Origin: Candidatus Poribacteria bacterium
GTDB taxonomy: Bacteria; Poribacteria; WGA-4E; WGA-3G
Direction: 5' to 3'
Assembly: GCA_028820845.1 (NCBI GenBank)
Contig: JAPPII010000033.1
Location: forward strand, 1-64,000
DNA: 64,000 bases
Below, piece after piece: positions 42,094 through 64,000 of this stretch. Each line of letters starts with the position of its first letter. Positions within the stretch are counted from its first letter, which is position 1. Both the position numbers and the translations under genes were made by a program. The notes below the pieces were generated by a model, which was given only the letters and a program-made list of their open reading frames with translations, was not told the origin of the DNA and did not search any database.

Positions 42094-42411
42094 TTAGGCA
42101 TCCGATTTTACTTCCACCTTGATCTCTTCGTCTTCAACAAGCACAGGGTAAGTTCTGACATGGAGACGTGGGTCGGTTTGACATTCCCCCGTTTTCGTAT
42201 CATAAGCATAACCGTGGACGGGGCAGACAGCAATACCGTTGCGAATTCTGCCTCTACCGAGAGAACCCAGCGCATGCGGGCAGGTGTTGTCCACAGCACA
42301 AAATTCACCGTTCTCGTTGAAAATAGCAATCCGTTTTCCGTTGACGGTAAACGCCTTGCCGCGTCCTTCACGGATAGCTGATGTTTTCGTGACCGTTGTC
42401 CAATCCGCCAT
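42094..42411 (-). CDS. Rieske 2Fe-2S ferredoxin (NirD-like)
   Basis: A 105-residue soluble Rieske protein. Cys44-x-His46 in CPHALGSL and Cys63-xx-His66 in CPVHGYAYD bind the 2Fe-2S cluster. The length fits nitrite-reductase small-subunit or biphenyl-dioxygenase ferredoxin types; there is no partner reductase or oxygenase nearby, so its role is uncertain. It lies four bases from the permease gene upstream and six from the barrel gene with which it converges. Confidence 0.88.
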   Translation of the reverse strand: MADWTTVTKTSAIREGRGKAFTVNGKRIAIFNENGEFCAVDNTCPHALGSLGRGRIRNGIAVCPVHGYAYDTKTGECQTDPRLHVRTYPVLVEDEEIKVEVKSDA

Positions 42412-42415
42412 TTTT

Positions 42416-44125
42416 TTACTCCTTCACGCCACCTAAAGTAATACCTTGCACAAATTCACGCTGCATCGCTAAAAACAGAATAACAATCGGCATTAGCGAG
42501 AGCAGTGTCCCCGCCATCAACATGCCGTAGTCTTGCCGATAGATACCGACGAGGTTCGCTAAGCCGATCGGTAGTGTGTATTTTGCCTCATCGCGCAAGA
42601 TAATGAGGGGCCAAAGATAACCGTTCCACGAACCCAAGAAAGAATAGATAGTTAACGCACCGAGTGCTGGCTTGATAATGGGTAGCACAACCCGGTAGTA
42701 GATACCGAACTCGGAACAACCGTCAATGCGCGCTGCGTCCAACAATTCCGATGGGATCGTGACAATGAATTGGCGCATCAAAAATACGCCGAACGCGCCT
42801 ACTGAGAATGGGATGATGATCGCTTTGTAACTATTGAGCCAGCCAATATCATACATCAATCCGAATAGCGGAACAAGGAGCACCTGAAAAGGCACCATCA
42901 TTGAAGCGAGAAGAATACCAAACAGGATTTTTTGACCTCGAAATTGATATTTCGCAAACGCGTAACCACCGAGTGAACAGAAAAACAGCGTCAATAAGGT
43001 TGAAGCAGTGGCGATAAAAACACTGTTGATGAAATACCGATTGTATGGCACTGTCTTCCACAAATTTCGGTAGTTTGAGGTAAACTTATCCCACACTATT
43101 GATAGGTAGCCCGGCTGATGAATCGTCAACTGTAGAAGGAGTTGCGTTCCTGCACCTATTTCTATTGCAGACGGCGTTGTAAGGTCTGTTTCTACCTGTT
43201 CCATTGTGATATGCGATGATTCCAGTTCACCCGGAGTGCCGTGCAATCGCCATACCGCATCTTTCCACAGCGCACTCTCCAAAATGAAAGGACGTGTCGG
43301 TTGATAGGTAACGTTGCGAGTCGTTCCAGCATGTAGAACGGAGACGCTTAAATCGAGGTGGTGATACGAGGCATCACCGCGAACGGGCAGGATAATCCGC
43401 CGAATCTGTTCAACTGGAATGGGTGAAGAGATGCTCGCTGTCATGCGGACGGTTTTGTCATCTCGGAATTCGTAAGATATATTCGCCGCAGTCTGCGGAT
43501 CGGCAGATGTTCGGAGGTTCGCGCCTCTCTCTGCTTTCCACTCGGCGCCTTCGATCTGTGGACGGTTGAAATCGAGATCTTCTATCTGAAGCCTTCCCAC
43601 TGCCACTTCTCGATACACCGAGCTCCAGATCGTGTCAACGGTTTCTGGAATAATTGCTGCCTCCACCGTCTTGATGATTGAAGGTGTTGTGCCACGCCAA
43701 ACTTCCTCCGGCAGTCCTGCTACCAGTTGTTGCCATAACCCCTCGACTGTTTCTGTCTGTAATTCCTCAGATGGGACGTAATTGGAGAGATGCAGGTTTG
43801 CTGCGAGATGTGTTTGCGCCTGTTTCCAAACAACCTGTGTGAGTTCTGGTGCTAACGTCTGCCAGGCCGTTTCGTCAATTGTCTCTGGTTTCTCTATTTT
43901 TCGATAAGCGTTTTCAACGGTATAAGGCGATGACGCGACGCGCGGCGGGAGACTCGGAAACCACTGAATCGGTACCGCGAAAATCTCATTTGCCGTCTTA
44001 AAAGAGGACGTCAGCAACCAGAGCATAGGTATCATCGTGCAGAAAGCTGCGCCTACCAAAAGGAGATAACCGATACCTCTGGAAATTTTTGTCGCAACCT
44101 GTTTATTTTTTTGGTTTTGGTTCAT
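42416..44125 (-). CDS. MalG-type ABC permease with a ~290-residue periplasmic insertion
   Basis: A 569-residue permease, twice the usual ~280. Helix 1 (about 18-40) and the extracytoplasmic stretch up to about residue 62 are normal. Residues ~62-348 are an added domain with helical start and a beta-rich end. From residue 349 the normal sequence resumes at FTSNYRNLWKTVPYNRYF, followed by five helices. The EAA loop is LLDAARIDGCSEFGIYY, which contacts the ATPase. The family imports sugars. No MalF, binding protein or ATPase is near; it abuts the MoxR gene by one base. The insertion may do the work of a binding protein, which is inference. Confidence 0.85.
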   Translation of the reverse strand: MNQNQKNKQVATKISRGIGYLLLVGAAFCTMIPMLWLLTSSFKTANEIFAVPIQWFPSLPPRVASSPYTVENAYRKIEKPETIDETAWQTLAPELTQVVWKQAQTHLAANLHLSNYVPSEELQTETVEGLWQQLVAGLPEEVWRGTTPSIIKTVEAAIIPETVDTIWSSVYREVAVGRLQIEDLDFNRPQIEGAEWKAERGANLRTSADPQTAANISYEFRDDKTVRMTASISSPIPVEQIRRIILPVRGDASYHHLDLSVSVLHAGTTRNVTYQPTRPFILESALWKDAVWRLHGTPGELESSHITMEQVETDLTTPSAIEIGAGTQLLLQLTIHQPGYLSIVWDKFTSNYRNLWKTVPYNRYFINSVFIATASTLLTLFFCSLGGYAFAKYQFRGQKILFGILLASMMVPFQVLLVPLFGLMYDIGWLNSYKAIIIPFSVGAFGVFLMRQFIVTIPSELLDAARIDGCSEFGIYYRVVLPIIKPALGALTIYSFLGSWNGYLWPLIILRDEAKYTLPIGLANLVGIYRQDYGMLMAGTLLSLMPIVILFLAMQREFVQGITLGGVKE

Positions 44126-44126
44126 T

Positions 44127-44999
44127 CTATAATCCTAATTCGGATAATTCTACTGTCCGTGCCCGTTGAATGTCGTCCTGATACTTGAAGACACACCCAA
44201 GCGTTTCCGTAACAACCTCTGCATCCAGTTGCGCCTTACCGAGTGCGATGAGTGCCAATGCCCAATCCAGCGTCTCTGCTACCCCCGGTTTTTTGTAGTA
44301 ATCCCCTTGCCGCCACAGCTGCATGATCCGACACAACTGCTCCGCGAGATGTTCGTCAATATCTGGCAACTTCGTCTGGACAATTGCCAGTTCTTTCTCA
44401 AGAGTCGGATAATCGATCCACTGATAAAGGCAACGGCGTTTGAGGGCTTCGTGTACCTCTCGCGTCCGATTTGAGGTGAGCACAACATGCGGGATATGTT
44501 TTGCTCGGATCGTGCCGATTTCGGGGATCGTAATCTGAAAATCGGATAGGACTTCAAGCAGGAACGCCTCAAATTCACTGTCGCTCCGATCTACCTCGTC
44601 AATGAGTAAGACCGGTGGGACATCAGCATCGCTCTGAATGGCTTCCAGCAACGGACGTTTCAGCAGAAATGCCTCACTGAACAAATCCGTTCCGATGTCT
44701 TCTTTATCACGTCCTTGTGCTTCGTCAATGCGAAGTTGCAAAATTTGCCGTGTATAGTTCCATTCATACAACGCGCTGTTTACATCCAAGCCTTCGTAAC
44801 ACTGCAATCGGATGAGTTTGGCGTTTGTTGAGTCCGCAAGGACTTTAGCGACTTCTGTTTTGCCGACCCCGGGTTCGCCTTCGAGAAAGATAGGCTTTTT
44901 GAGGTGGTGCGCCAGATAGAGCGTCGTCGCTAAACCCTTATCTGCGATATACGCATGTTTTTCACATACGGCTTGAACGTCTTCGATGGATGTAAACAT
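44127..44999 (-). CDS. MoxR-family AAA+ ATPase, CoxD-like
   Basis: A 290-residue AAA+ ATPase. Walker A is GEPGVGKTE (41-49) and Walker B VLLIDEVDRSD (130-140); VVLTSNRTREVHEAL is sensor 1. CoxD-type MoxR ATPases help mature molybdenum hydroxylases such as CO dehydrogenase and xanthine dehydrogenase. The MocA-like gene lies 27 bp upstream, which supports this role. The hydroxylase subunits themselves are not in the window. The permease gene follows closely on the same strand. Confidence 0.88.
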   Translation of the reverse strand: MFTSIEDVQAVCEKHAYIADKGLATTLYLAHHLKKPIFLEGEPGVGKTEVAKVLADSTNAKLIRLQCYEGLDVNSALYEWNYTRQILQLRIDEAQGRDKEDIGTDLFSEAFLLKRPLLEAIQSDADVPPVLLIDEVDRSDSEFEAFLLEVLSDFQITIPEIGTIRAKHIPHVVLTSNRTREVHEALKRRCLYQWIDYPTLEKELAIVQTKLPDIDEHLAEQLCRIMQLWRQGDYYKKPGVAETLDWALALIALGKAQLDAEVVTETLGCVFKYQDDIQRARTVELSELGL

Positions 45000-45026
45000 T
45001 GTGTGATATGTAATCGGTAGCCTCCT

Positions 45027-45632
45027 TCACTTCTCCTGCAAAGCGCGTTCATAATCTTCTCGATAATCAATATCCCGCAATACCCGATCCGTATCTACAG
45101 TGACGTAGTGAATATCGTCACCGTATTTCTTGAAAAGTGTTCGTACGCCACTACTCCCTGAGTCTAAGGCAAGGATTTCACAAGTATATCGCTGGTGAAA
45201 GACAACCGGATGCCCGCGTTTGTAGTTGTAACTCGGAAGCGCAATTCCTTTGTCCGTTTGTTGGTAGGCATTGATAACCTGATTAATCAACTCAGAAGTA
45301 ATGAAAGGCTGGTCTACTAACATCAGTGAAAATGCGTTGCTCCCTTGCAAGGATCGGATACCCACCTGTGCCGAGGTTAACATCCCTTCGCGGTAATCAG
45401 GGTTAAAAACAATTCTGACCGGGCGCGTCCGCAGTTGTTCCTTGATCTCCGCTGCGCAGTGTCCGACCACGACAATAACCTCATCAAACTTTGCACCGAG
45501 CATGCTATCCACTACGGTCTCAACGATAGTGCTTTCTCCAAACGGGAGTAGCTGCTTCGGCTCTCCCATTCGGGAGGAGAGTCCTGCTGCAAGAAGGATT
45601 CCAGATATGAAAGGAGATGATTGCTGCGCCAT
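45027..45632 (-). CDS. MocA-like molybdenum cofactor cytidylyltransferase / NTP transferase
   Basis: A 201-residue nucleotidyltransferase. LLAAGLSSRMGEPKQLLPF is the nucleotide-binding motif of the MobA/MocA group and LMLVDQPFI gives the metal-binding Asp. MocA attaches CMP to molybdenum cofactor for hydroxylases of the xanthine dehydrogenase family. Together with the CoxD-like ATPase it points to such an enzyme. It lies two bases after the YdjY-acylphosphatase gene. Confidence 0.85.
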   Translation of the reverse strand: MAQQSSPFISGILLAAGLSSRMGEPKQLLPFGESTIVETVVDSMLGAKFDEVIVVVGHCAAEIKEQLRTRPVRIVFNPDYREGMLTSAQVGIRSLQGSNAFSLMLVDQPFITSELINQVINAYQQTDKGIALPSYNYKRGHPVVFHQRYTCEILALDSGSSGVRTLFKKYGDDIHYVTVDTDRVLRDIDYREDYERALQEK

Positions 45633-45634
45633 GT

Positions 45635-46603
45635 CTAATACCGAATGCCGAAAGTCTCATATTCCCCAGTGAAAGCACGTGCGTCGATGTCAATCGAATC
45701 GACTCTTGCGTAACGCGGTCCCTTTTTCAGGAACGTAACTAACGCATCTAACTGCGCCTTATCACCCTCGGCGACAACCTCGACTTTACCGTTTGGTAGA
45801 TTCTTTGCATAACCGTTAACACCGAGTTGTTTCGCGTTGAGCTGCGTAAAATTACGAAAACCTACACCTTGCACCTTGCCACTGATTAGCACGTACAATT
45901 GCATTTTCTGGTTGACCTCAATCGTAAGTGTGATAGGAGTGCCAAGTTCTGGGAGCACGGCATCGTTCTTTTTATAGATGTTCTCCTCTGACGATTCAGG
46001 AAGCGGGTTCTGGAAGAGCGCGCTTGCATCAAACACCCTCAAGGCGACAATGTCATTACTCATAAACGCTTGCGGCAGCATCGCATCTTCATCTTCACTG
46101 TCCAAGTCGGGCACAATACGCGAACCCGAGTAGATCCAAGCGACCTGTTGCAACGGCTTTTTGGTTTTTACATTGAGAATAAGTTCTTCGGCGCGGACCT
46201 TTTTCATTTCGTCGCCGTCTTTCCACGCAACGGACATAATGAATGCAGTACCTGTTGGCGATGTCGGGGCATCTTTTTCTTCATCGTAGCCAGGGGGTGT
46301 GCCGACTTCAACACCGAGTTTACTTAAAGCGTCGTAGATTTCTTTCGCTGTCGCATCAACAATAATGATACTCTCATACTCCTTGCCGTCGCGTCCACAG
46401 ATGAGATATTCGACTGCACCTCTTAAATGCTCATCATATTCACCGAGTGCTTTAGAAATTTCGCCAGTTAAGACGAGCTGTTTTTCCTTTTCCATCACCT
46501 TGAGATGCCCATCACCCCATCCGATACTCGACAGCGCAACAAGGCACACAGTTAAACAGATTTTGATTCCCACCTTCAAAATACTGGGTTTTACCTTCCT
46601 CAT
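45635..46603 (-). CDS. exported YdjY-like / acylphosphatase fusion
   Basis: A 322-residue exported protein. After a signal peptide (cleaved near residue 25), residues 30-230 look like the YdjY domain (LICGRDGKEYES, PTGTAFIMSVAWKDG, AWIYSGSR). Residues 235-322 are an acylphosphatase: LISGKVQGVGFRNF gives the catalytic Arg and GYAKNLPNGKVEVVAEG the Asn. Acylphosphatases are normally free cytosolic enzymes of about 90 residues, so the exported fusion is unusual. I start at the ATG at 46603, which has AAGGAGG six bases upstream; the longer frame does not. Confidence 0.85.
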   Translation of the reverse strand: MRKVKPSILKVGIKICLTVCLVALSSIGWGDGHLKVMEKEKQLVLTGEISKALGEYDEHLRGAVEYLICGRDGKEYESIIIVDATAKEIYDALSKLGVEVGTPPGYDEEKDAPTSPTGTAFIMSVAWKDGDEMKKVRAEELILNVKTKKPLQQVAWIYSGSRIVPDLDSEDEDAMLPQAFMSNDIVALRVFDASALFQNPLPESSEENIYKKNDAVLPELGTPITLTIEVNQKMQLYVLISGKVQGVGFRNFTQLNAKQLGVNGYAKNLPNGKVEVVAEGDKAQLDALVTFLKKGPRYARVDSIDIDARAFTGEYETFGIRY

Positions 46604-46667
46604 GAGATCCTCCTTTTTCATAGTTGTTGGTTTTAATAGTTTTCAGTCGTCAGTTAACCGACAACCA

Positions 46668-58221: not shown

Positions 58222-59142
58222 ATGCAGAAATACAATCGGATACTGTCCTTCATCATAAATATTTTAGTCATCCTAACAGGTGCCGTTGTTGTTAGCAGTT
58301 GTTCGCCGAAAGATAGCGAAGGGGGCCTCACTAAAGATGTTGACCACATCACTATCAAGAATAAAGGCTCAGACACGATGGTGAATTTGGCGCAGGCGTG
58401 GGCAGAGACGTACACGAGTATCTCCAGCCAAGCATCGGTAGAGGTGTCGGGTGGCGGTTCTGGGACAGGTGTTGCTGCACTCATCAACGGAACTGTTGAT
58501 ATAGCCAACTGCAGTCGCCAGATTAAGCCTAAGGAATTAGAGCAGGCAACGCAAAATACGGGTAAAGTGCCTCAGGAATTTATCGTCGGTTATGATGCCC
58601 TTGCGGTTTATGTCCATCATGATACACCTATTGATAAGATTACAATCCCACAGCTCGCAGAGATCTATGGCGAGAACGGCACGATAACGAAGTGGAGCCA
58701 TCTCGGTCTCACGCATACCGCCTGTCCAAGCGACAAAATTATTCGCATCAGTCGGCAATCTAATTCGGGTACGTATTTCTATTTTCGAGAGGCACTGCTT
58801 GGGACAGCGCGCGACTTTCGTATCGGTTCGTTAGATTTACACGGCTCTAAAGATGTAGTGGAAGTTATTGGAAGAACGCCCTGCGCGATTGGCTACAGCG
58901 GTATGGGGTATGCTACCTCACATGTCAAAATGTTAGAAGTCGCTACTACCTCCGATGCCCCTTACTACGCACCAACTCTTGAGAATGTTATGGCGAAAAC
59001 CTATCCTATCGCCCGTCCACTTTACATGTACTCCTTGGGTGAACCGACAGGCGCAATTAAAACATATCTCGATTGGATTTTGTCCGCCGAAGGTCAACAG
59101 ATTGTTGAGAAACTCGGTTTCGTACCGTTAGACAGCAGCTAA
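58222..59142 (+). CDS. pstS: phosphate ABC transporter substrate-binding lipoprotein
   Basis: A 306-residue PstS. The signal ends VVSSCS, a lipobox-like site, so Cys27 may be lipidated. The mature part begins ITIKNKGSDTMVNLAQAW, and SGGGSGTGVAALINGTVDIANCSR and SRQSNSGTYFYFREAL are the phosphate-binding signatures. It delivers phosphate to the Pst permease. GGAAGG lies before the ATG. It heads the pst cluster; the -10-like TATAAT at 58184 is a possible promoter. Confidence 0.93.
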   Translation: MQKYNRILSFIINILVILTGAVVVSSCSPKDSEGGLTKDVDHITIKNKGSDTMVNLAQAWAETYTSISSQASVEVSGGGSGTGVAALINGTVDIANCSRQIKPKELEQATQNTGKVPQEFIVGYDALAVYVHHDTPIDKITIPQLAEIYGENGTITKWSHLGLTHTACPSDKIIRISRQSNSGTYFYFREALLGTARDFRIGSLDLHGSKDVVEVIGRTPCAIGYSGMGYATSHVKMLEVATTSDAPYYAPTLENVMAKTYPIARPLYMYSLGEPTGAIKTYLDWILSAEGQQIVEKLGFVPLDSS

Positions 59143-59148
59143 ACATAT

Positions 59149-60054
59149 ATGAATTTTCTACGCAAAAAAAGCACAGCAAACCTGCCGTTTTCCGAAACAG
59201 CAATTGAACTGTTTATTCGCTTATGTGGTATTAGTTCTATTCTCTTTGTATTTGGTATCTTTTTCTTTGTATTTCGCGAGGGGGCGGGTTTTCTTTTCAA
59301 CGGTTTGGATTTGAAGGAGTTTCTGACGAGCGTAGAGTGGCAACCGACCTCACTCAATAATAAAAGATACGGTGCGTTTGCCTTAATTGTGGGCACTTTT
59401 AGTGTTACAGTCTTAGCAATGTGTATTGCCGTCCCTTTTGGGCTCGGCGCAGCAATTTTTGTCTCAGAGTTTTGTAGCCCAAAACTGAGAGAGACTTTCA
59501 AGATTATCATCGAGCTGCTCGCTGCGATCCCGTCGGTTGTGTGGGGGTTTATTGGGTTGACCTTGATGAATCAGCTGATTATTGCTGTGTTCAAAGCACC
59601 CATCGGTTTAACGATGCTCAACGGAGGCATTATGTTGGCGTTGATGAGTGTCCCGATCATCGTCTCTATAGCGGAGGATGCCTTAAAAGCCGTGCCAGAT
59701 TCCTATCGCGAGGCAGCGGAAGCACTCGGCGCAACCCGATGGCAGGTGGTCTATCGTGTGCTTTTACCAGCAGCAAAAAATGGGCTATTGGCAGCCGTCT
59801 TGCTCGGTGCCGCACGTTCCATCGGTGAAACAATGGCGGTCTTGATGGCAACCGGACACTCTGTTAACATTCCGTCGGGGCCGCTTTCTTGGATCCGCAC
59901 GCTAACAGCGACAATCGCCGCCGAATTAGGGGAAGTCGCGAGGGGTGATGAACACTATCAGGTCCTCTTTATTATCGGTATTCTCCTTTTTACTATCACA
60001 TTTATAGTGAACCTCATCGCTGATTTGGTTATCAAAGGCATCCGTCAAGAGTAA
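59149..60054 (+). CDS. pstC: phosphate ABC transporter permease
   Basis: A 301-residue inner-membrane permease with six membrane segments. The EAA loop, REAAEALGATRWQVVYRVLL, contacts the ATPase. The short periplasmic loop after helix 1 and the late GIRQE end are typical of PstC. It begins six bases after the pstS stop, so it is co-transcribed. It forms the channel with PstA. Sequence is complete. Confidence 0.93.
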   Translation: MNFLRKKSTANLPFSETAIELFIRLCGISSILFVFGIFFFVFREGAGFLFNGLDLKEFLTSVEWQPTSLNNKRYGAFALIVGTFSVTVLAMCIAVPFGLGAAIFVSEFCSPKLRETFKIIIELLAAIPSVVWGFIGLTLMNQLIIAVFKAPIGLTMLNGGIMLALMSVPIIVSIAEDALKAVPDSYREAAEALGATRWQVVYRVLLPAAKNGLLAAVLLGAARSIGETMAVLMATGHSVNIPSGPLSWIRTLTATIAAELGEVARGDEHYQVLFIIGILLFTITFIVNLIADLVIKGIRQE

Positions 60055-60055
60055 T

Positions 60056-60208
60056 TTTGTAGCGCAAACTTTTAGTTTACGTCTGATCCAACACAATCTA
60101 AATGAAGATTAATTTATAACTTCGGTAATTTCCTAATAATGCTTGGTGCGGTTGGGAAACCGTGAAGAAACACCCCACGGAATGCCCGGGGAATGCCACA
60201 CGGCATTC
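60056..60208. repeat. cluster of three dispersed palindromic repeats
   Basis: A TGTAGC-type repeat (60056-60082: GCGCAAACT, AGTTTACG), a degenerate GGTGCGGTT/AACCG copy near 60145-60162 and a GAATGCC-ACAC-GGCATTC hairpin (60191-60208) fill the 237-bp gap between pstC and pstA. The gap does not contain a clear promoter or terminator. Confidence 0.55.
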
Positions 60209-60291
60209 ATACCGTTGATTTACGCGCATTCCGTGTTGATTCGCAAAAACTCTACCAAGCCTGGGGAACCTATTAAGGATAATACGGAGAT

Positions 60292-61209
60292 ATGAACACT
60301 GACGTACAGGTATCGCCGCAAGAGATGTTCACGGAAACACCGATTGCCCGGCAAAAACGGCAGATAGAGAATGTAATGCGGATTTTCCTGCTTGTCATAA
60401 CAAGTCTGATGATTATCCCGCTGCTTCTCATTATCGGCTATCTCCTCTATAAGGCATTGCCGGTACTCTCTTTGGAGTTTCTGTTTACGAATCCGAAAGA
60501 CAATATGCGTGCCGGTGGACTCTGGGCACCCTTCCTTGGAACAATCTATTTAGTGGTAGTGTCTCTATTGGTGTCTGCTCCTATTGGTGTATTCGCTGCC
60601 GTCTATCTCAACGAGTATGCCCGTGATAACTGGTTTACGCGTATCACGAATTTGGCTGTTGTTAATCTGGCTGGCGTGCCGAGTATCGTCCACGCGCTGT
60701 TTGGCGTCGGTGCATTTGTCCTCTTTGCAGGTTTAGGTGAGTCTATACTCGCAGCCTCACTCACGCTCGCAATCATGACGCTTCCGGTTATTATCGCCAG
60801 CACAACGGAGGCACTTAAAGCGGTACCTATGTCTTTTAGGGAGGCGTGTTGGAATCTGGGTGCGACGCGATGGCAAACGATTCGCCGTATCGTCCTCCCT
60901 AACTCCATCAGTGGTATCCTGACGGGTGTGATTTTACAGGTATCGCGCGCAGCGGGTGAAACGGCACCTATCATGTTCACCGGGGCGGTTTTCTATAAGT
61001 CTATTGCGGAAGGAAACCTTTTCGCCTATAATATAACGGAACAGTGTATGGCACTCTCCCTACATCTTTTTACAATTTCAACACAGGTACCAGATGTGAC
61101 CGAGGGAATTCCGTACGGGACTGCAATAGTGCTTGTCGCCACTGTTTTACTCGTCAACGCCGCATCAATTGCGCTAAGGGTTTATCTCCGAACTCGAAAG
61201 AAATGGTAG
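60292..61209 (+). CDS. pstA: phosphate ABC transporter permease
   Basis: A 305-residue inner-membrane permease, six membrane segments after a cytoplasmic N-terminus of about 25 residues. The EAA loop is REACWNLGATRWQTIRRIVL. The SRAAGETAPIMFTGAVFY motif is typical of PstA. It follows pstC after a repeat-rich gap. The ribosome site is AAGGATAATACGGAG. It should pair with PstC and the two PstB-type ATPases. Confidence 0.93.
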   Translation: MNTDVQVSPQEMFTETPIARQKRQIENVMRIFLLVITSLMIIPLLLIIGYLLYKALPVLSLEFLFTNPKDNMRAGGLWAPFLGTIYLVVVSLLVSAPIGVFAAVYLNEYARDNWFTRITNLAVVNLAGVPSIVHALFGVGAFVLFAGLGESILAASLTLAIMTLPVIIASTTEALKAVPMSFREACWNLGATRWQTIRRIVLPNSISGILTGVILQVSRAAGETAPIMFTGAVFYKSIAEGNLFAYNITEQCMALSLHLFTISTQVPDVTEGIPYGTAIVLVATVLLVNAASIALRVYLRTRKKW

Positions 61210-61236
61210 AGTGGTTGTTTATAACCAGACAAAAAC

Positions 61237-61992
61237 ATGAATAAAGAAAAATTACGAAATATTGTTGAGGGGGCCGCATTTACCGCCGTCATCCAGTTTC
61301 TGATTCTTGCATCCGCTGTCGTTTTTGTGCTTGAATCCGATAGAGATGTGTGGGGATTAGCCGGATATGCAACGCATTTTCTTATTTTAGACTGGGTGTT
61401 TTTTGTTTTATTTTCAGCGGAATATGCACTGCGGGTCTACATTGAACCCAGAAAACGGGATTTCATTTTCAGTTTCTATGGTATAATTGATTTGCTGGCG
61501 ATTTTACCGTCTCTGTTTCTCGTCCCCGGATTTCGTGTGCTACGCGTCCTCCGATTCTTGCGGGTCTTCAGAATCTTCAAGGCAACCCGTTTTATCCTCG
61601 CAGTTGATCGGCTCGCAACAGCACTTCGTGGCATCCAGCAAGAACTCTTGGCACTCGTTATCTTATCGTTGATGCTCGTCTATCTCGCGGCATGCGGGAT
61701 CCACTACTTTGAGAGAGATGTCCAACCTGAAAAGTTCGGCTCTATCCTTGATTCGATGTGGTGGGCTGTTGTGACATTGACAACTGTCGGGTATGGAGAT
61801 GTCTATCCAGAAACAGGCGGTGGAAGGGTTTTCACTGCGCTCGTCACCCTTGTGGGTGTAGGGCTTATCGCGATTCCTTCTGGATTGTTGGCATCGGCTT
61901 TGACGGAAGCACGCGTGGAACGCGAAGCAGCAGAGGAAGCTGAAGAAAAAGAGAATCAATCTACGGAACACAGCGACACAAAAAGTGGCTAA
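61237..61992 (+). CDS. voltage-gated ion channel family protein (Kv-like)
   Basis: A 251-residue six-helix potassium-channel-type protein. The S4 helix near 98-113 has Arg at 100, 103, 106, 109 and 112, the every-third pattern of a voltage sensor. TTVGYGD at 182-188 is the potassium filter. It should be a tetrameric K+ channel in the inner membrane. It lies 27 bp after pstA and six before pstB1, so it is inside the pst cluster. A helper role in balancing charge or sensing energy state during phosphate uptake is inference. Confidence 0.9.
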   Translation: MNKEKLRNIVEGAAFTAVIQFLILASAVVFVLESDRDVWGLAGYATHFLILDWVFFVLFSAEYALRVYIEPRKRDFIFSFYGIIDLLAILPSLFLVPGFRVLRVLRFLRVFRIFKATRFILAVDRLATALRGIQQELLALVILSLMLVYLAACGIHYFERDVQPEKFGSILDSMWWAVVTLTTVGYGDVYPETGGGRVFTALVTLVGVGLIAIPSGLLASALTEARVEREAAEEAEEKENQSTEHSDTKSG

Positions 61993-61997
61993 AAAAT

Positions 61998-62783
61998 ATG
62001 AACACGAATGGTAATAATGATTCACAAACCACACCTATAATTGAAATCAACGATCTGACGGTCCGTTACGGCGATACACCTGCGCTGAACGGAATCTCTT
62101 TTGATGTCCATAAAAATGAGATTCTCGGTATCATTGGACCTGCGCAGTCGGGTAAGACCACACTTTTGCGGGTTATCAACAGAACGCTGGAATTTACGGC
62201 AGGAACGACTATAGAAGGTTCTGTAAAACTTGATGGCGTAGACATTAGCACGATTGGCGATGTTTATGGCTTACGTCGGCGTATCGGTATGGTGTTGCCG
62301 TTGCCCGTAGGACTCCCCCTTTCAATATACGATAACGTCGCTTTCGCACCGCGGACAGCAAGCGTTCGGGCAAAATCGGAATTAGACGAAATCGTTGAGC
62401 GGTGTCTGCAGCAAGCTGCACTCTGGGATGAAGTCAAAGATAGGCTGGATACGCTTGGGACGAAACTCTCTGGTGGACAACAACAACGCCTTACGATCGC
62501 CCGCGCCCTCTCGCATCAACCGGAGATTCTCTGTCTTGATGAATTTTCTATTGCTGTCGATCCTGTTACAACGATGCGTATTGAAGACGTCCTGAAAACT
62601 TTACGGACGGAAATGACGATTCTTCTTGTCACCAATCTTGTTCAACAGGCGAAACGGTTAGCAAACCGCACCGCTTTTATGCTCAATGGCGATCTCGTTG
62701 AGATTGATACAACCGATGTGATTTTTTCTGACAACCCGAGGAATCAGGCCACTTACGATTACGTCAACGGCACTTTTGGCTAA
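61998..62783 (+). CDS. PstB-like ATPase with degenerate Q- and H-loops (PstB1)
   Basis: A 261-residue PstB-family ATPase. Walker A GPAQSGKTT (47-55, Lys53), the signature LSGGQQQR (157-164) and the catalytic-type Glu182 in ILCLDE are intact. The Q-loop Gln is Pro101 (MVLPLP for MVFQKP), the H-loop His is Asn213 (LLVTN) and Walker B continues DEFSIAVDP instead of DEPTSALDP. In ABC dimers each ATP site is made of one partner's Walker A/B, Q and H and the other's signature. So this chain would supply a poor site of its own but a good signature to its partner. It starts six bases after the channel gene. Confidence 0.88.
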   Translation: MNTNGNNDSQTTPIIEINDLTVRYGDTPALNGISFDVHKNEILGIIGPAQSGKTTLLRVINRTLEFTAGTTIEGSVKLDGVDISTIGDVYGLRRRIGMVLPLPVGLPLSIYDNVAFAPRTASVRAKSELDEIVERCLQQAALWDEVKDRLDTLGTKLSGGQQQRLTIARALSHQPEILCLDEFSIAVDPVTTMRIEDVLKTLRTEMTILLVTNLVQQAKRLANRTAFMLNGDLVEIDTTDVIFSDNPRNQATYDYVNGTFG

Positions 62784-62795
62784 ATTTTTTAAACT

Positions 62796-63569
62796 ATGGG
62801 AATGATGAATTATAGCATTGAAACTGAAAATCTTAGTCTCTGGTACGGCGATTTTCAAGCACTCATTGATGTCAATGTCAAAATACCCAATGGTCAGATA
62901 ACCTCTCTTATCGGTCCATCAGGATGCGGGAAATCGACATTACTTCGCTGTTTTAATCGGGTCAACGAGCGTTACGGCAACGTCACGACCAAGGGGAAAA
63001 TTGAGGTCCTCGGAAAAAATATCTACGACCCAGATGTCTCTTTACCAGAACTCCGCAAAGCCGTCGGTATGGTGTTCCAGCGACCGAATCCATTGCCAAT
63101 TTCGGTTTACGAAAATGTCTTATTCGGTTTGCGGATTCACTCACCAATGCGCAGCCTAACACGGACGGACTGCGATCAGATCGTTGAAGAAGCTTTAACC
63201 TCTGTTTTCCTCTGGGATGACCTAAAGGATAGATTGAAGGTCCGCGCAACAACACTTCAGCTTGAACAGCAACAGAAACTCTGTATCGCGCGGCTATTAC
63301 CGCTTAAGCCGAAAGTTATTCTCATGGACGAACCGTGCTCCGCCTTGGATGCAAAAGGAACACTCGCTGTTGAAGAACTCATGGAGGTACTCGCAGGAAC
63401 CTACACATTCTTAATTGTGACGCACAATATGGCGCAAGCGCGACGCGTGAGTAAAGAGTGTATCTTCATGTTCCTCGGTGAACTTATTGAATATAGAGAG
63501 ACACAGGCACTGTTTCAGACACCAGAACACCCCAAAACTGCAGATTATGTGCAAATGCGGTACGGATAA
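62796..63569 (+). CDS. PstB-like ATPase with degenerate signature motif (PstB2)
   Basis: A 257-residue PstB-family ATPase. Walker A GPSGCGKST (40-48), the Q-loop MVFQRPNP (Gln95), Walker B VILMDEPCSALDA (174-186) and the H-loop VTHN (His210) are intact. The signature is LQLEQQQK (154-161) in place of LSGGQQQR. So it can bind and hydrolyse ATP only against a partner that supplies a good signature. PstB1, twelve bases upstream, has one. Two homodimers would each lack a whole site, so a heterodimer is the simple reading. No strong ribosome site precedes the clustered ATGs. Confidence 0.88.
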   Translation: MGMMNYSIETENLSLWYGDFQALIDVNVKIPNGQITSLIGPSGCGKSTLLRCFNRVNERYGNVTTKGKIEVLGKNIYDPDVSLPELRKAVGMVFQRPNPLPISVYENVLFGLRIHSPMRSLTRTDCDQIVEEALTSVFLWDDLKDRLKVRATTLQLEQQQKLCIARLLPLKPKVILMDEPCSALDAKGTLAVEELMEVLAGTYTFLIVTHNMAQARRVSKECIFMFLGELIEYRETQALFQTPEHPKTADYVQMRYG

Positions 63570-63576
63570 GGATAGC

Positions 63577-63740
63577 ATTCAGCATTCAGCATCAACGGTA
63601 TTCAGGTTCTCCGTGTGGCATGAACCGGGATTGCTACGCAACCCTCTCAGCGGTCAGTAAAGATCTGTTCCGTTTAAAGGATCTTCCTCTTGCTGACTGC
63701 TGATTGCTGAAAGCGCAGCGTGCTGACTGCTATTCCCGCT
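63577..63740. repeat. repeat phrases after pstB2
   Basis: AGCATTCAGCATTCAGCATCAACGG, then TGTGGCATGAACCGGG (a relative of 21650), then a CTGACTGCTGATTGCTGA phrase and GTGCTGACTGC. These short repeat phrases fill the 184-bp gap before the last gene. They encode nothing and are the same kinds seen near 6346, 35916 and 36677. Confidence 0.5.
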
Positions 63741-63753
63741 GATTGCCAATATT

Positions 63754-64000
63754 ATGAATTCTTTAATGACTCGTCCGAATCCAAGACAAAAATTCGCTTT
63801 GCAGAGTATTGCGCTCGTTATACTGGGAGCGGTGTTCATCCCAATATGGTACCTTCTACAAAAATTGCGCGTCTCTGATGTAGAGGTATCATCAGTAATA
63901 CCTGTCTCGGAGACGCTATCGGGACCACTCAGCGATCTCTATCTTTTTTTAATTATTAGTTTTTTCGCAATTTTGTTTGCGGTGCTATGTGCCTTTTACT
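63754..64000 (+). CDS. membrane protein, 3' end off window
   Basis: Open from an ATG at 63754 (or 63766) to the right edge, 82 codons. It has a membrane segment near 17-36, a polar loop and a second segment beginning near 60. The position after the pst ATPases suggests a further phosphate-system part such as a divergent permease or sensor, but the visible sequence shows no family motif. No ribosome site is clear. Too short for a firm call. Confidence 0.5.
   Translation, partial: MNSLMTRPNPRQKFALQSIALVILGAVFIPIWYLLQKLRVSDVEVSSVIPVSETLSGPLSDLYLFLIISFFAILFAVLCAFY

Follow-up and report, generated by a model that had tools for sequence, protein, structure and literature searches.

A large periplasmic domain inserted in a MalG-type ABC permease of Candidatus Poribacteria, with a homologous insert in a second transporter

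The stretch of 64,000 nucleotides analysed here (contig JAPPII010000033.1 of the Candidatus Poribacteria assembly GCA_028820845.1, referred to as the window) contains a gene for a MalG-type permease in which a long segment separates the first transmembrane (TM) helix from the remaining core. This locus raises the questions of whether such a protein is real, with which other subunits it would form a transporter, and how the additional domain was acquired and what it might do. The features of the locus are given below, with residue numbers referring to the MalG protein.

42416..44125, minus strand: MalG-type permease gene with inserted domain (569 aa, one open frame)
44000..44086, minus strand: TM helix 1, residues ~14-42 (hydropathy; model helix 5-41)
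43079..43942, minus strand: inserted periplasmic domain, residues ~62-349 (alignment versus insert-free MalG; insert profile A1)
43616..43873, minus strand: helical subdomain of the insert, residues ~85-170 (AlphaFold2 models)
43118..43606, minus strand: beta-sandwich subdomain of the insert, residues ~174-336, with the conserved LPxRGDxSYH (~246-255) (sequence columns and AlphaFold2 models)
42419..43078, minus strand: TM2-TM6 permease core, residues 350-569, BPD_transp_1 at 387-556 (Pfam, PDB homologues, Foldseek)
42710..42745, minus strand: EAA-type coupling motif LLDAARIDGCSE, residues ~461-472 (sequence and invariant columns)
44127..44999, minus strand: MoxR-type AAA ATPase, conserved neighbour 1 bp upstream of malG (Pfam and neighbourhood comparison)
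42094..42411, minus strand: Rieske [2Fe-2S] protein, conserved neighbour 4 bp downstream of malG (Pfam and neighbourhood comparison)

A sequence-only reading had described this open reading frame, and its coordinates, its strand and its 569 open codons proved to be exact. The same reading had placed an insertion after helix 1 at residues ~62-349, which was borne out by alignment, Pfam and hydropathy. The Pfam domain BPD_transp_1 covers residues 387-556 only (75.3 bits versus a cut-off of 26.4), the MalG, SugB and AlgM2 chains of the PDB align with the protein from residue ~341-364 to the C-terminus, and the hydropathy profile has no TM helix at residues 43-363, the next hydrophobic stretch beginning at ~364. 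The best sequence and fold matches of the core were AlgM2, SugB, MalG and UgpE, and Foldseek yielded matches to SugB and MalG with E-values of 1e-6 to 5e-5. Additionally, the core contains the EAA-type motif with DAARIDG at residues ~463-469, in which A464, A465, D468 and G469 are invariant in 57 sequences; we take this motif to be the site contacting the ATPase. The usual MalG topology puts the TM1-TM2 loop on the periplasmic side, and the insert, lying between TM1 and TM2, is therefore placed in the periplasm. This position supports the proposal that it sits on the face where a binding protein docks, and the suggested division into a helical and a beta-rich half matches the AlphaFold2 model, with helices at residues 85-170 and strands at 174-336.

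At positions 42094-46621 of the window, malG belongs to a tightly spaced cluster, with gaps of a few bases, that also encodes the MoxR-type AAA ATPase, a MobA-like transferase, an acylphosphatase-domain protein and the Rieske protein. A Pst (phosphate-type) ABC operon starts at 58.2 kb (window 58222-64000 and L142) and encodes a PBP_like_2 protein and permeases, followed downstream by a PstB-like ATPase and a PhoU-like protein.

Whole-genome searches detected the insert-bearing full-length MalG in 55 of the 58 genomes of the family within Candidatus Poribacteria, with one copy each and with several of these genomes consisting of single contigs, and a scan of the genome collection yielded about 50 loci encoding the same full-length protein. 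In almost all loci malG is located between the AAA and Rieske genes, often a few bases from each. Insert-bearing MalG proteins were present in 64 of the 85 genomes of the phylum that were searched; the insert was absent from about 300 searched genomes of other phyla, and a search of viral contigs and plasmids gave no match. An assembly or frameshift artefact fusing two genes, which the sequence-only reading had named as a refuting case, has virtually no probability: no point in its support was found, the same uninterrupted frame recurs in over 50 independently obtained MAGs and single-contig genomes, no region of the gene has a dN/dS of 1 or more, and homologous architecture also occurs in a paralogous system. 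Insert-free homologues, the other case raised against the reading, do exist, namely the MalG proteins of two loci (L090 and L091) and a malG remnant in genome G039, but they bear on the history of the domain and give no sign of an artefact. A split match in genome G031 that looked like a chimera turned out to be an ordinary open reading frame with extra insert residues. The window MalG is a real, well-conserved new version of an established transporter type.

Comparisons of close relatives yielded dN/dS values below 1 in every region of malG, with 0.00-0.04 for the TM core, 0.13-0.29 for the helical half and 0.11-0.41 for the beta half of the insert. Both core and insert are under purifying selection. 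The insert is nevertheless by far the fastest-evolving part of malG: across the family its identity falls to ~40% at the lowest, versus at least 90% for the core, and lies below that of the substrate-binding protein (SBP, 71-98%) and MalF (78-98%) of the same genomes.

The earlier remark that binding protein, MalF and ATPase are missing nearby holds for the genes near malG, which include no cognate SBP, MalF or MalK, but not for the genome, which encodes such partners elsewhere. Among MalG proteins without the insert, the nearest one (72% identity in the core; ~277 aa) occupies third position in an SBP-MalF-MalG operon in L090 and L091, which belong to two class-level Poribacteria relatives (L090, G079:C11; L091, G080:C13). 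When the MalF and SBP of the L090 operon were used as queries, the search for homologues and linked partners proposed in the sequence-only reading led to another contig of the window genome, where an adjacent SBP-MalF pair that lacks a neighbouring MalG is located at C101:45957-48413. This pair's SBP is 61% and its MalF 68% identical to the L090 counterpart; cognate SBP and MalF are accordingly encoded in the window genome, though not adjacent to malG. MalF of the C101 type was found in 56 of the 58 family genomes and together with the insert-bearing MalG in 54, and a distance of 0.75-2.5 Mb separates malG from malF in five genomes that consist of a single contig. The f1 MalF (319 aa) matches the E. 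coli MalF model from position 263 onward only, indicating that the P2 domain (residues 91-271) is absent, and the window-type SBP has a hydrophobic N-terminus and no lipobox. Moreover, the window genome encodes a MalK-type ATPase with a regulatory TOBE/OB domain; two candidates of this type are singly encoded at C114:158486-159580 (above the cut-off of the UgpC model) and C32:10415-11533. Shared ATPases of the MalK kind occur in other bacteria (PMC7658222). Judged from these homologies, the window MalG is probably a subunit of a CUT1-type type-I ABC importer that would be assembled from subunits encoded at separate loci. Its substrate may be a carbohydrate; the C101 SBP matches just a general carbohydrate SBP model, below the cut-off.

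Some individual genomes need separate mention. In favour of the pairing of MalG with this SBP and MalF, the two-contig genome G039 lacks SBP and MalF and, of malG, retains no more than the final 75 codons; this remnant (L100:8769-8990) is 93-95% conserved and lies between intact Rieske and AAA genes. The adjacent SBP-MalF pair was missing from G015, a 78%-complete draft, where its absence is probably a draft gap. The related genomes G048 and G050 (L197, L198, L237, L238) keep SBP and MalF and have no close MalG anywhere; at the malG locus the AAA gene is intact and malG and the Rieske gene are missing, and their SBPs are the most diverged of those compared (71-73%). Genome G071, outside the family, likewise fits the pairing, since it has the f1-type MalG together with the f1-type SBP-MalF; it also has the second type of insert-bearing MalG and the corresponding SBP-MalF (L088, L089, L202, L203), with transfer and contamination (7%) both remaining candidate sources. 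On contig C47 of the window genome (G000; L105:9497-10714), a second MalG-like permease of 405 aa with its own adjoining SBP and MalF has an insertion behind TM1; this stretch of ~120 residues is markedly hydrophobic and resembles extra TM helices; because of its own partners and its different insertion, it was ruled out as a partner of the window system.

The insert is not restricted to this importer. Class- and order-level relatives encode eight more MalG proteins with such an insert (30-33% identity overall). In family f5 the gene adjoins one encoding an SBP-MalF fusion protein, and in f7 (G074) and f4 (G071) the fusion is encoded on a contig apart from the insert-bearing MalG; the fusion proteins comprise 795-918 aa. 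The inserts of this second type occupy the same TM1-TM2 loop as the window insert, the profiles of the two types align with an hhalign probability of 100% and an E-value of 4.7e-52 over 283 columns, and both types have SPY, several Trp residues and LPxRGDxSYH in common. A 777-aa SBP-MalF fusion beside an insert-free MalG was observed in another phylum (L204:3077-5410, G112:C44), indicating that fusion and insert are separable and that CUT1 permease subunits fused to an SBP are not confined to Poribacteria.

The AlphaFold2 model of the insert has a mean pLDDT of 84.9 and a pTM of 0.80 and shows, in insert numbering, helices at 28-113, then some nine strands reaching as far as 279, and finally a helix that connects to TM2. 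The TM core is modelled less confidently in the full-length prediction (pLDDT ~55-75), from which placement of the domain over the pore is not readable. Profile searches of Pfam, NCBIfam and the PDB with the insert returned nothing significant, and Foldseek found no PDB match with E < 1e-3; the best rows, SPOP MATH domains (E 2e-3, TM-score at most ~0.3), reflect a generic beta-sandwich likeness. Neither an SBP fold nor an SBP match in Pfam was detected, so that the protein does not qualify as a fusion of an SBP to a TM domain, and MalF P2 was absent from the profile matches among PDB sequences as well as from the 50 best Foldseek rows. Thirteen columns are invariant in 57 insert sequences, and the invariant aromatic residues W88, W131 and W196 stand out together with the SYH motif. 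The open-access literature searched yielded no account of a MalG insert of this kind. By these sequence and model comparisons, the insert is a previously unclassified, outside-facing domain.

The sequence-only reading had considered a built-in capture or gating domain. In the case of capture, the insert could be a ligand-binding domain, with a beta-sandwich resembling a carbohydrate-binding module (CBM) that would bind substrate or glycan by the pore. The beta-sandwich half, the three invariant tryptophans and the SYH motif would suit such a role, as would Foldseek rows to CBM22 and an endoglucanase, but the latter are insignificant (E 0.13-0.14, TM-score < 0.25). The comparison of the predicted structure with carbohydrate-binding folds, which that reading had called for, recovered no such fold; no significant CBM family or fold match was obtained with Pfam and Foldseek, none of the 57 members has a Pfam CBM match, and capture is already provided by the SBPs of both systems. 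We therefore regard ligand binding by the insert as unlikely. Gating likewise gains no support, and orthologous transporters whose SBP and MalF are of the same kind do without the insert.

The two types of insert-bearing MalG do not have a common core ancestry to the exclusion of other transporters. In a TM2-TM6 tree with 18 outside MalG proteins, the window type was placed beside the insert-free L090 and L091 proteins (support 100/94), and the second type was placed elsewhere, with insert-free MalG proteins of other phyla (100/99). In a topology test under LG+G4, in which some outgroup branches are long, a single clade of all insert-bearing cores was rejected (p-AU 3.2e-6), as was a clade including L090 and L091 that would permit one loss (p-AU 1.3e-4). 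Small core trees without wide outgroups did not separate a single from a multiple origin, and the insert tree is unrooted and gives no direction of transfer. The rejection of a single insert-bearing clade implies that the domain, or the core around the domain, was exchanged between transporters, and since the insert occurs only in Poribacteria among the genomes searched, exchange is simpler than an ancient insert that was lost many times. Recombination between malG genes may accordingly have exchanged either the insert, which would have entered a canonical malG, or the core, with a canonical core replacing that of an insert-bearing gene.

With regard to function, we tentatively favour the insert as a docking or retention platform for a membrane-anchored SBP, although the case falls somewhat short of even. 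In this mechanism the domain between TM1 and TM2 would hold the anchored SBP over the translocation pore through a presumed insert-SBP contact, a role that would parallel that of E. coli MalF P2 on the other half of the pore. It is suggested by the periplasmic position of the insert together with a cognate MalF devoid of P2 and an SBP that is tethered in both systems, either by fusion to MalF (second system) or by a hydrophobic N-terminus (window system). Several observations speak against it. The insert-free L090 and L091 systems have the same kind of anchored SBP, and docking thus cannot strictly require the insert. Its sequence also changes far more quickly than that of the SBP (for example, 45% versus 80% identity in G044), a pattern that would be strange if the two surfaces co-evolved for docking. 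Furthermore, G048 and G050 have SBP and MalF but no close MalG, and Foldseek shows no match to MalF P2 among its 50 best rows. The broader proposal, that a phylum-specific domain of new fold is an exchangeable importer module and a separately evolved, MalG-side counterpart of P2 for SBP retention or docking, is conceivable and appears doubtful to us.

Fast divergence under purifying selection (0.11-0.41 versus 0-0.04 for the core) would also suit variable partners, as would be expected if the insert tied the importer to a component of the envelope, such as peptidoglycan, the outer membrane or a porin or receptor, instead of to the SBP. Movement of the domain between two unrelated transporters is compatible with this idea, its partner then not needing to be one particular SBP, but Pfam, PDB profiles and Foldseek revealed no likeness to known peptidoglycan-binding or outer-membrane-contact domains, and we rate an envelope link as improbable. 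Lower still stands the explanation that the insert is a structural spacer or a relaxed passenger with no specific role: rapid divergence, the insert-free orthologues that relatives keep as separate operons and the loss of malG in G039, G048 and G050 fit it, whereas dN/dS values well below 1, a confidently predicted fold, the 13 invariant columns across two transporter lineages and a frame that is open in 55 of 58 genomes make it very unlikely.

Many Poribacteria are sponge symbionts, and accessory domains on the permeases of type-I importers are usually read as SBP fusions or as the MalF P2 loop. The insert represents a third kind of accessory domain, located in MalG, conserved within a sponge-symbiont family and common to two unrelated transporters, and thus an extracytoplasmic module of ABC importers that is apparently exchangeable between systems. 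In addition, the subunits of one importer are scattered over the genome, where annotation by gene neighbourhood would miss them, and the insert-free orthologues of the relatives provide a natural control for the function of the module.

Compared with the MalG, SugB and UgpE proteins (CUT1, PF00528), the window MalG has a like TM2-TM6 core, EAA motif and C-terminal region, whereas canonical MalG proteins comprise ~275-300 aa with a short TM1-TM2 loop and the window protein is ~288 residues longer at this site. Unlike canonical malG genes, the window gene does not lie beside genes for SBP and MalF. The E. coli binding protein MalE makes contact with MalF P2 (residues 91-271) and with MalG residues ~70-72 (PMC3150292). 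Like the insert, MalF P2 is a sizeable domain that folds on its own within a periplasmic loop of a CUT1 permease, but P2 belongs to MalF rather than MalG, comprises ~180 residues and gave no fold or sequence match to the window insert in the searches. OpuA and GlnPQ are type-I importers whose SBPs are fused to the transmembrane subunit (PMC11065425, PMC8025302), and the paralogous system of Poribacteria likewise fuses the SBP to a permease subunit. OpuA and GlnPQ are, however, osmolyte and amino-acid systems, whereas the Poribacteria fusion joins an SBP of the SBP_bac_1/8 family to MalF, and the MalG partnering this fusion, unlike OpuA and GlnPQ, bears an additional insert that is not an SBP. 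The nearest relative is the L090/L091 operon, with orthologous SBP (61%), MalF (68%) and MalG core (72%), but in that operon the genes are contiguous and MalG is free of the insert.
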